This document shows positions 2,221 through 5,008 of a stretch of DNA of 64,000 nt, in pieces. Source of the DNA: Bacteroidota bacterium (lineage in GTDB: Bacteria > Bacteroidota > Bacteroidia > Cytophagales > Cyclobacteriaceae); contig VGMW01000003.1 in the NCBI GenBank assembly GCA_016866235.1, positions 124,001 to 188,000 on the forward strand, written 5' to 3'. The translations under genes and the position numbers were made by a program. Positions within the stretch are counted from its first letter, which is position 1, and every line of letters starts with the position of its first letter. The notes beneath the pieces were generated by a model, which was given only the letters and a program-made list of their open reading frames with translations, was not told the DNA's origin and made no database searches.

Positions 2221-3018
2221 ATGGAATTATTTCTTCAGCCCGAAACCTGGCTTTCACTGCTAACCCTCTGCTTCCTTGAGGTGGTTCTTGGCATCGATAA
2301 CATCATCTTCATTTCAATTGTCTCCAATAAACTTCCGGAGCACCTTAGGAAGAAAGCAAGAAATACTGGGCTTGCATTTGCCATGATCGTCCGGGTGGTT
2401 TTACTGCTTGGAATCAATTGGATCATCGGATTAAAAATGGAACTCTTCAATCTTACAACGTTCGGAATTCCCTTTGACCATGGCTTTAGCGGAAGGGACC
2501 TCATTTTGATTTTTGGTGGATTGTTTCTGATTGCCAAAAGCACCATGGAGATCAACCATGAAATGGAGGGTGGTGATCCCGAAGAGGAAAACAATCAGGC
2601 TGCCAAGGCTGCCATTAGTCTAAGTGGAACCATTGTTCAGATTATTCTGCTGGACATTATTTTCTCGTTCGACTCTATTCTGACTGCCGTAGGTATTGCT
2701 GATGAGGTCCTGATCATGATCATAGCGGTCATAGTATCAATTGCCATCATGATGTTCTTTTCTGGCAACATCAGCAGCTTTATTCAACGGCATCCCAGCA
2801 TGGAGGTACTTGCTCTGGGCTTCCTTATCCTGATCGGATTCACCTTGCTCCTGGAAGGATTGGGCGAAGAGATCCACAAAGGTTACATCTATTTTGCTGT
2901 GGCATTTTCACTTCTCATTGAGTTCACCAACATTCGGGTGAGAAAAAAGCGGAAGCAAAAGGTAGTTAAACTCAATAAGGACTATACCGACGAGCAACTC
3001 AAGGACGCACTCGAATAA
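2221..3018 (+). CDS. TerC/Alx-family integral membrane protein
   Basis: This is a 265-residue polytopic inner-membrane protein with about seven hydrophobic helices. The two diagnostic acidic membrane motifs of the TerC family are present: VVLGIDNIIF near residue 22 and IIFSFDSILTAVG near residue 145. The acidic residues lie in pseudo-symmetric halves and are thought to coordinate or move metal ions; family members are linked to manganese export and tellurite or pH stress. The C-terminus is a short lysine/arginine-rich cytoplasmic tail. The stop is three bases before the next start (3022), so the YfiT-like gene is probably co-transcribed. No other ter genes are nearby, so a metal-homeostasis role is likelier than a tellurite-resistance cassette. 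Confidence 0.88.
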   Translation: MELFLQPETWLSLLTLCFLEVVLGIDNIIFISIVSNKLPEHLRKKARNTGLAFAMIVRVVLLLGINWIIGLKMELFNLTTFGIPFDHGFSGRDLILIFGGLFLIAKSTMEINHEMEGGDPEEENNQAAKAAISLSGTIVQIILLDIIFSFDSILTAVGIADEVLIMIIAVIVSIAIMMFFSGNISSFIQRHPSMEVLALGFLILIGFTLLLEGLGEEIHKGYIYFAVAFSLLIEFTNIRVRKKRKQKVVKLNKDYTDEQLKDALE

Positions 3019-3021
3019 AAA

Positions 3022-3564
3022 ATGGATCAAAACCAGATCGACGCTTTACGCTATCCTATAGGAAAATTTACTCCGAAAGATCCGTACACTGCTCAAGACT
3101 TTCAATCAGATATCAATCGATTAGAATCCTTTCCGGATCGACTCAAGCAGGTGGTATCCTCCTTTTCAGCACTGGATTTCAATACACCTTATCGTAAGGA
3201 AGGTTGGACTGTTCTGCAAACCATCCATCACCTGGCTGATAGCCATCTTCATGCTTACATTCGGGTTAAATGGGCGCTAACAGAAGACAATCCATCCATC
3301 AAGGCGTACCATGAAAAACTATGGGCACAGACACCAGAAAATAACCTGCCTGCTGAAGTATCCTTGAATCTGTTATCCGCTCACCACAAAAAATGGACTG
3401 CTCTCCTACGTTCATTGGATGATGATTCATTAGCAAAATCCTTTGTACACCCCGCAAGTGGAGCCACTGTTTCCATTCAACGAATGGTTCAATTGTACGC
3501 ATGGCATGGTGACCATCACCTGGCACACATAACCGAATTGGTGCGTCGAAATTTTGATCGTTAA
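3022..3564 (+). CDS. DinB-fold protein, YfiT/bacillithiol transferase-like
   Basis: This 180-residue protein has the YfiT signature LRYPIGKF at its N-terminus. It has the DinB-fold metal triad: His in IHHLADSH (about residue 72) and two His in WHGDHHLAH near residue 160. The family is a four-helix bundle holding a divalent metal; Bacillus YfiT-like proteins act as bacillithiol S-transferases. It sits three bases downstream of the TerC gene. No bacillithiol biosynthesis gene (bshA/B/C) lies in this window, so the cofactor cannot be confirmed here. The family call is firm and the exact reaction is not. Confidence 0.8.
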   Translation: MDQNQIDALRYPIGKFTPKDPYTAQDFQSDINRLESFPDRLKQVVSSFSALDFNTPYRKEGWTVLQTIHHLADSHLHAYIRVKWALTEDNPSIKAYHEKLWAQTPENNLPAEVSLNLLSAHHKKWTALLRSLDDDSLAKSFVHPASGATVSIQRMVQLYAWHGDHHLAHITELVRRNFDR

Positions 3565-3642
3565 GGTCTCTTTTAAACCAGACTGGTTAAGGCAGGAAAT
3601 CGTCAAATTCGGTCAAAAAACTTATATTTCGAGGATTTTAAC

Positions 3643-4344
3643 ATGGTAGTCAATCGATATACCTTAACCCTCGAAGCTGAGAAATTGGGACAACGTCTTG
3701 GCGTTGTTGTGCCCGAGGCATATCGACCACGATTCAATGCTGCTCCTGCGCAACTCTTACCGGTTTTAACTGCAGGATCGGAAATTGGTATATCTTGGTT
3801 TTACTGGGGCCTCTCACCTCAGCGAAGTCAGAACAAATCCATCAGCGATAAAATTCTTAATCGTAAAGCGGAGGATGTTTCGACAAAACCTGTTTTCAAG
3901 AAATTGTTGAGAACACATCGGTGTCTGATACCGATGGATGGCTTTTATGTTTGGAAACAGATTGGAAAGAAGACCCAAACCCCCTACCTGGTTGTACTAA
4001 AATCCAGGCAATTGTTTGCTGCGGCAGGTATTTGGGAAGAGTTTGAAACGGAGCGTGACGAAACCCATCATACTTTCAGCATGCTTACGGTACCCGCACC
4101 TGATGCCTTGCGGGGACTTGGAGAACGAATACCCTGTATGGTTGCTGAAAAAGATGAAAGACGCTGGCTCAATCCGGAAACCACTGAAGTTGAACTTATT
4201 CAATTGCTTCAAAGTCCAACGGATCCTGAAATGGAATTTTTTACGGTGAGTCCGCAGATAGAAGATCCTGACCGCGATAGCCCTAGTTTAATAAAACCTG
4301 CTCCTGCCGCGGATCAGTTTGGTAATCTTACCCTTTTCGGTTAG
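3643..4344 (+). CDS. SRAP (YedK/HMCES)-domain protein lacking catalytic residues
   Basis: At 233 residues this has the full length and fold-wide motifs of SRAP proteins: FNAAPAQ (30s), YWGLSP (55-59), NRKAE (73-77), CLIPMDGFYVW (94-104) and the ERIPCMV region near 161. Active family members begin MCGR, use Cys2 to form a thiazolidine crosslink with an abasic site, and keep Glu in GFYEW and His in HDRMP. Here the protein begins MVVNRY, Glu is replaced by Val103 and His by Gly160; only the Asn of NxxxE is kept. The in-frame codons upstream of the ATG encode no Cys, so a missed start does not rescue the site. It may be a non-catalytic DNA-binding pseudoenzyme. Its end overlaps the convergent lipoprotein gene by 17 bases. 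Confidence 0.82.
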   Translation: MVVNRYTLTLEAEKLGQRLGVVVPEAYRPRFNAAPAQLLPVLTAGSEIGISWFYWGLSPQRSQNKSISDKILNRKAEDVSTKPVFKKLLRTHRCLIPMDGFYVWKQIGKKTQTPYLVVLKSRQLFAAAGIWEEFETERDETHHTFSMLTVPAPDALRGLGERIPCMVAEKDERRWLNPETTEVELIQLLQSPTDPEMEFFTVSPQIEDPDRDSPSLIKPAPAADQFGNLTLFG

Positions 4345-5008
4345 TCTTAACTTGTTTCTCTTTACCCTCAGACTTTTTGCGCCATTTCAAAAATCCCCTT
4401 TTAGCATCGGATTCCTTCCCACTGGTTGAGTCTTGAGGCGCAGGCAATTTTTTTACAACTGGTGAAGGTGGTGGAGTGTCCACGATTCCTGCTTCCTTCT
4501 TCTCCAACTGGTATCTGATGTCAGGCAGCAGCAGGGTCTTCCTGAAAAACCACATATAGAAATCCTGGTCGTTGTTGTACTTCTCTTTGGTTTTGGTGAT
4601 TCGAAAATCAGGGCTTTTGAGGACCATTCCGCTTTCTGCTTTCATTACGGCGGCAATGCTATCCGCTTTGAACATCGCCACTGAGTCGCCCAACTCTAAG
4701 GATAGATCGTCTTCTTTCTCGGTTTTGGCACTATCAATTTTAACAGGGTAAAGTGGCGTCATGTCGACGGTCTGCATACTTCGGAACTTTTTTCGATAGG
4801 ATTCCGGTACGGCCACCAGGTATTTGTTTTGGTCGGTGCTCGCGGTCAGAATTTTTGGCGTTGAGTCTTCTTTGAAGTAGCTAAACTTCTTTTGGAGTGC
4901 GACCTTATCGTAAATGAAAGAGCTTTGGTATGCCGGACAAACAGCCTTTTGAATGCACGAAGGTGCAATGAGTCCCAGGACCAGAAATAGCAAACCCGAA
5001 AGTCGCAT
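4328..5008 (-). CDS. hypothetical lipoprotein with CPAY motif
   Basis: This is a 226-residue secreted protein of unknown function. It starts with a hydrophobic signal and a probable, slightly imperfect lipobox (LIAPSC, Cys18), followed by VCPAYQSSF, a segment I associate with small lipoproteins common in Cytophagales. The middle is acidic and lysine-rich with no recognisable fold. The C-terminal 60 residues are proline- and lysine-rich and end in KTNRKG, so the tail is probably disordered. A -7 type motif (CAAAGTTA on the plus strand) lies about 20 bases upstream, suggesting its own promoter. Location at the periplasmic face of a membrane is inferred from the signal. Confidence 0.6.
   Translation of the reverse strand: MRLSGLLFLVLGLIAPSCIQKAVCPAYQSSFIYDKVALQKKFSYFKEDSTPKILTASTDQNKYLVAVPESYRKKFRSMQTVDMTPLYPVKIDSAKTEKEDDLSLELGDSVAMFKADSIAAVMKAESGMVLKSPDFRITKTKEKYNNDQDFYMWFFRKTLLLPDIRYQLEKKEAGIVDTPPPSPVVKKLPAPQDSTSGKESDAKRGFLKWRKKSEGKEKQVKTNRKG

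Follow-up and report, generated by a model that had tools for sequence, protein, structure and literature searches.

A SRAP-domain protein of a Cyclobacteriaceae bacterium that lacks three catalytic residues and carries a conserved, candidate clamp-binding tail

Knowledge of SRAP proteins so far centres on the suicide crosslink made by Cys2. The paper that founded the family described the second-residue Cys as "absolutely conserved" (PMC3765255). E. coli YedK without the Cys2 thiol no longer crosslinks to abasic sites; its crosslinking is severely reduced by E105A or E105Q and made ~10-fold slower by H160A or H160Q, and Asn75 has little importance at internal abasic sites. YedK C2A retains Schiff-base and lyase activity, most of which is lost in C2A/E105Q; in a C2A background, lyase activity is a further 25-fold slower with E105Q (PMC9436759). 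Human HMCES has been proposed to travel with the sliding clamp PCNA via its C-terminus (PMC8053108). Proteins that bind the bacterial clamp DnaN carry the consensus motif QLxLF, usually at the C-terminus (PMC4549789). In the largely open-access literature searched, no paper linked a bacterial SRAP to DnaN.

The window (the whole 64,000-nucleotide stretch of DNA that was analysed) contains a SRAP ORF with an ATG start and an intact frame (Table 1). The Pfam profile PF02586 matched residues 5-208 of the predicted protein, and the whole-domain score of 164 bits (cut-off 27.1) places it in the SRAP superfamily. The top PDB matches by sequence were BT_1218 (2f20) and E. coli YedK. An AF2 model built on 44 aligned sequences had pLDDT 87.6 and pTM 0.87; the alignment comprised the window protein, Cyclobacteriaceae SRAPs and phage SRAPs, and the dominance of catalytic phage SRAPs in it favours the canonical fold. 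Foldseek aligned the model to 2f20 (BT_1218), 6nua (YedK) and 6oov (HMCES) with TM 0.79. The fold, as modelled, is that of SRAP. The C-terminal tail was the least certain part (blocks of 45-70 pLDDT), as expected of a flexible end. An earlier model built on 8 sequences (pLDDT 35) was discarded.

Table 1. Coordinates of the SRAP gene, its landmark residues and its neighbours in the window
Feature	Position	Strand	Basis
TerC-family membrane protein, neighbour in conserved locus	2221..3018	+	Pfam PF03741, synteny
DinB_2/YfiT-like protein, directly upstream of SRAP	3022..3564	+	Pfam PF12867, synteny
SRAP-domain protein, predicted non-catalytic, 233 aa	3643..4344 (including stop)	+	ORF, Pfam SRAP 4.4e-48, AF2 model, Foldseek
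Altered N-terminus VVNR	3646..3657	+	Sequence, alignment with orthologues
Asn73, equivalent of YedK Asn75, kept, in ILNRKAE	3859..3861	+	Alignment
Val103 replacing catalytic Glu105 (GFYVW, canonically GFYEW)	3949..3951	+	Sequence
Gly160-Glu-Arg162; catalytic His160 replaced by Gly, Arg162 retained	4120..4128	+	Sequence
Tail DQFGNLTLFG, candidate DnaN clamp-binding tail	4312..4341	+	Conservation, ends of related SRAPs
Conserved protein, convergent	4328..5008	-	ORF; no Pfam match; cluster c8 in four relatives

Residues are compared in YedK numbering, which for Cys2, Asn75, Glu105 and His160 was taken from PMC9436759 and for the remaining equivalences from alignments. The N-terminus M-V-V-N-R5-Y is one residue longer than usual; Arg5 corresponds to Arg4, which is kept, and Val3 (codon 3649-3651) occupies the position of Cys2 (MVVNRY, not MCGR). 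The motif HDRMP reads GERIP, with Gly160 at codon 4120-4122. The three losses (Cys2, Glu and His) in an intact ORF that the earlier note had described were thus read as stated. Its remark that only the Asn remained was too strong: besides Asn75, the equivalents of Arg4, Asn37, Pro40, Trp61, Glu79, Trp106 and Arg162 are kept. Arg77 is replaced by Lys, and a Trp near position 67 by Arg. We take Arg4, Pro40, Arg77, Trp106 and Arg162 to contact DNA, as in the YedK and HMCES structures. Because all three groups, which serve to open the abasic sugar and make the thiazolidine crosslink, are absent, the protein presumably neither crosslinks abasic sites nor nicks them efficiently via the known route. 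Judged by its sequence, the gene is an orthologue of the YedK/HMCES abasic-site SRAP protein that has presumably turned pseudoenzyme. YedK resembles the window protein in fold and in the DNA-site frame (Arg4, Pro40, Asn75, Trp106 and Arg162 equivalents) but has Cys2, Glu105 and His160, crosslinks abasic sites, and has a C-terminus without the LF tail. HMCES shares the SRAP fold and the proposed C-terminal clamp contact; unlike the window protein, it is a Cys2 crosslinker, and it has a eukaryotic type of clamp motif.

We sampled 36 other genomes of the window's genus. Intact orthologue loci (L004-L032) were present in 29 of them, with 39-48% identity to the window protein, which lies on a long branch (48% identity to the nearest orthologue). 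All 29 lack Cys2 and His160, and their N-termini read MIERY, MIERF, MFDRY, MITRY, MSSRY and others. Glu105 is lost from most (A, V, C, I or T instead) and retained in L009, L015 and L017. Three genomes (G013, G018 and G023) carry copies broken by stops or frameshifts (L123, L124 and L125), and no orthologue was detectable in four of the 36; some of the genomes with broken or missing orthologues are incomplete assemblies. In the species with broken copies, the SRAP orthologue is either dispensable or misassembled.

Orthologues without the catalytic residues (below, dead orthologues) extend beyond the genus, with 40 dead rows in family f1 and 7 in its sister family f8 (family and genus labels are ours). 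Those of f8 (L078-L084) start MIDRY or MVNRY, end in the tail NQYGNYSLFD and belong to streamlined genomes of 1.0-1.6 Mb. The Cys2 and His losses recur in the 29 intact genus orthologues and in others beyond the genus. This excludes chance and also sequencing error, which the earlier note had named as a possible source of the missing Cys. The note had suggested examining whether close homologues share the triple loss; they do in the genus and beyond, with the Glu105 loss in most members rather than all. Three second SRAP copies of family f5 (L071, L073 and L077) keep Cys2 (MCDRY or MCERF) and have lost the Asn75, Glu105, His160 and Arg162 equivalents; the order of losses therefore differed between lineages.

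Other departures from the canonical N-terminus were also seen. L086 (G064) starts MPGRYS, with Cys2 replaced by Pro alone and Glu and His intact; the same genome has a second SRAP, L087. L110, L111 (minus strand) and L114 were considered as Cys-less SRAPs and rejected, as their full frames start MCFHKS or MCYHKA with an insertion. These three are of the active type, with GFFEW or GFYEW and a His-containing RMP motif; a large insertion follows their N-terminus, and they bear a C-terminal extension. A scan of viral sequences with the tail-group alignment revealed no relatives; canonical SRAPs as queries brought up 80 phage loci, and Cys2 was present in all 41 rows read.

The Cyclobacterium-type SRAP (L033-L036, L045-L047 and L050-L061) belongs to the lineage of the window protein and shares its tail (DQFGNYTLFG), but it has the full catalytic set MCGRY, GFYEW and HDRMP; its gene adjoins YheT. 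In the window the gene order is TerC, DinB_2, SRAP, the convergent gene, an IspG-like gene and an SDR-like gene. In relatives the order is the same except that a YheT-type hydrolase gene stands between DinB_2 and SRAP. In the window this hydrolase gene is missing from 3564-3643, and only 78 bases separate DinB_2 from SRAP. The active f1 locus reads HslV-like, PDH-E2, YheT, SRAP, FabH, and the dead f8 locus HslV-like, PDH-E2, SRAP, FabH; the dead SRAP of genus g26 is flanked by FabH and PDH-E2/HslV. Because dead and active forms are linked via YheT or the HslV-E2-FabH frame, they are the same gene. The f5 copies have no shared locus and were assigned to the lineage through sequence and tail only. 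According to the earlier note, homologues with the same gene order and an MCGR start would speak against its reading. Genes with the window's order start MIERY, so the objection fails there; it holds in part at the other locus of the lineage, where an MCGR orthologue adjoins YheT. The neighbours (HslV-like, PDH-E2, YheT-like hydrolase, FabH, MBL-fold, TerC, IspG-like and YjbR proteins) have housekeeping or unrelated roles and offer no clue to function. A defence-system library gave no match, and a promoter and terminator scan was not above shuffled sequences.

The C-terminal segment DQFGNLTLF, absent from the earlier note, is the best-conserved segment of the lineage. Active and dead orthologues of f1, f5 and f8 share the motif [DN]Q[FYH]GN[LY]xLF, in which Q, G, N, L and F are invariant; in an 11-sequence spread, 5 of the 17 invariant columns fell within the tail. 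The 3' ends of the SRAP gene and the convergent gene overlap by 17 bases, so that the last tail codons lie within the overlap; the tail is conserved also at loci without that neighbour. The window tail QFGNLTLF (NLTLF or NYxLF follows QFG in the lineage) has an LF end and the invariant Q, and no strict QLxLF. An LF-type end was carried by 68 of 69 members of the tail group, by 35 of the 50 further SRAPs from the order, by 2 of the 41 phage SRAPs and by 20 of the 177 neighbouring ORFs. For the strict clamp motif the corresponding counts were 0/69, 17/50, 0/41 and 0/177. Clamp motifs of the same genome are AQTNLFG in DnaE and QISLF in DinB. At the same position, ordinary Bacteroidota SRAPs often have VQGSLF, EQGNLF, VQLSLFE, AQLDLFS or QTSLFDE, and SRAP ends across the class include QLDLFS, QTSLFDE, QASLF and QGSLF. 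From its conservation and the ends of related SRAPs, the tail of the window protein may dock on DnaN. A degenerate DNA pattern of the tail, run over 395 genomes of the class, gave mostly out-of-context matches and missed known members, and is uninformative on distribution.

Clamp-like ends were also observed outside the lineage: many ordinary catalytic Bacteroidota SRAPs (L090-L093, L104, L108, L311, L313, L315, L317 and others) end in QGSLF, QLSLF, QGDLF, QLDLFS or QASLF. Phage SRAPs mostly lack such ends.

We tentatively propose, at a little under an even chance, that the window protein is a SRAP pseudoenzyme which DnaN keeps at the replication fork and whose contact with abasic or junction DNA is reversible, not a crosslink. 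The SRAP domain would bind abasic-site or single-/double-strand junction DNA and release it again, and the QFGNLTLF tail would dock on the clamp. Held in this way at the fork, the protein could serve as a removable shield or landing mark rather than as a suicide crosslinker. The arrangement would be comparable to that of HMCES, proposed to ride PCNA via its own C-terminus.

Phylogenetic analysis was used to place the losses. In a SRAP tree of 114 rows, the tail-bearing lineage (f1, the second f5 copy and f8) stood apart from other SRAPs (100/99), and dead rows were grouped separately from active f1 rows (91/95). Three rows outside the lineage (L110, L111 and L114) are wrongly marked as Cys-less in this tree, and the tail-group result is independent of them. 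In the RpoB tree, the active clade adjoined dead g26 (98/93) and was nested among dead lineages; this placement, with vertical descent, requires about four losses. The SRAP tree rejects neither a grouping of active rows with g26 (AU p 0.225) nor one of all f1 rows together (0.341). A single loss with later replacement in the active clade is also compatible with the trees. A wider reading, which we regard as somewhat unlikely, is that this is a vertically inherited, clamp-tethered SRAP lineage in which the crosslinking chemistry was lost several times independently (in f8, in f5, in f1 genus g26 and in f1 genera g1/g23/g31) while the clamp tail stayed invariant. Non-covalent handling of lesions from the clamp would then be the core SRAP function of these bacteria, with crosslinking as an optional addition.

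The dead form is held by purifying selection across a bacterial family and its sister family. The dN/dS calculation suggested by the earlier note (pairwise Nei-Gojobori, pairs with estimable dS) gave 0.03-0.15 in close dead pairs, for example 0.064 for L032/L031, 0.12 for L025/L029 and 0.059 for L013/L018; the lowest values are based on nearly saturated dS. In the sole estimable active pair, L033/L035, dN/dS was 0.02, also with nearly saturated dS. Between the window gene and L004 or L006, differences at the three codon positions were 0.44, 0.29-0.30 and 0.61-0.69, which shows constraint and, dS being saturated, gives no rate. Dead f1 rows conserved the equivalents of Arg4 (92%), Pro40 (100%), Asn75 (90%), Trp106 (97%) and Arg162 (92%). 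In the dead clade the Glu105 column is lost, with Ala in 57%, and so is the His160 column, with Thr in 52%. With the losses shared and dN/dS this low, the general suggestion of the earlier note, selection for a non-crosslinking function, agrees with the data. Families f5 and f8 have additionally lost the Arg77 and Arg162 equivalents and, often, that of Asn75; with the DNA-site residues thus degraded, DNA binding cannot be a role common to every dead member.

The low dN/dS of close dead pairs also bears on the possibility that SRAP is dispensable and on its way to a pseudogene under relaxed selection. Decay of this kind could account for the broken copies in G013, G018 and G023, the long branch of the window protein and the loss of its YheT neighbour. 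However, full-length intact ORFs occur in 29 genus genomes, the tail is invariant, and the dead copy is kept as the sole SRAP in genomes of 1.0-1.6 Mb. The catalytic columns drift while the remainder is held, a pattern that uniform decay would not yield. We therefore consider decay improbable. Neutral selection, which the earlier note had named as a result that would overturn its reading, is thus unlikely for the lineage as a whole, yet three members of the genus have broken copies.

About as improbable is a role as regulatory subunit of a translesion (Y-family) polymerase. A 2026 survey describes a SRAP-like group linked to UmuC-like polymerases (PMC12926913); like the window protein, its members are divergent SRAP relatives with a proposed non-standard role, and both SRAP and polymerase would sit on the clamp. 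However, that group is defined by linkage to polymerase genes, no Y-family gene was recognised beside the locus in the relatives examined, and this genome has its only Y-family gene on a different contig (C5:84366).

Regulation of an active paralogue had been offered by the earlier note as a further role. The paralogue it suggested looking for is present at C1:428312 (L001), with intact catalytic residues (MCYHKQ, GFYEW and HKKRMP), and is of the MCYH type, not MCGR. Both proteins have a SRAP domain and are encoded in the same genome, but they are only 32-33% identical and belong to different clades and loci. Competition for sites, for example, would be conceivable here and in the 14 genomes with a second SRAP among the 25 genus genomes whose completeness is 90% or more. 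In the other 11 of these 25 (by Pfam profile) and in all 15 f8 genomes (1.0-1.6 Mb; many of these assemblies incomplete), however, the dead protein is the sole SRAP, so paralogue regulation is not its general role, and we consider this explanation very improbable for the window protein. The dead protein is likewise the sole SRAP in 2/2 g23 and 2/3 g26 genomes, and exactly one SRAP was present in each of the 15 active-type f1 genomes examined.

Val at position 2, as in the window protein, is compatible with Met removal and could free an N-terminal amine; Ile or Phe, found there in most orthologues, should block it. Enzyme action by another route, with this amine nicking abasic sites through a Schiff base as an AP lyase would, is likewise very improbable: YedK C2A keeps such chemistry (PMC9436759) and some Cys-less orthologues (L009, L015 and L017) retain Glu, but in the window protein His160 is missing and so is Glu105, without which the residual activity falls 25-fold.

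A clamp-held pseudoenzyme that binds lesions reversibly remains the reading we favour, with the reservation given above. If the tail binds DnaN, the contact would be a bacterial counterpart of the HMCES-PCNA contact, one that many ordinary Bacteroidota SRAPs would share. Occurring naturally and under selection, a SRAP that lacks Cys2 separates the non-chemical job of finding and holding lesions and sitting at the fork from the chemistry. Dead SRAPs are thus natural separation-of-function proteins.
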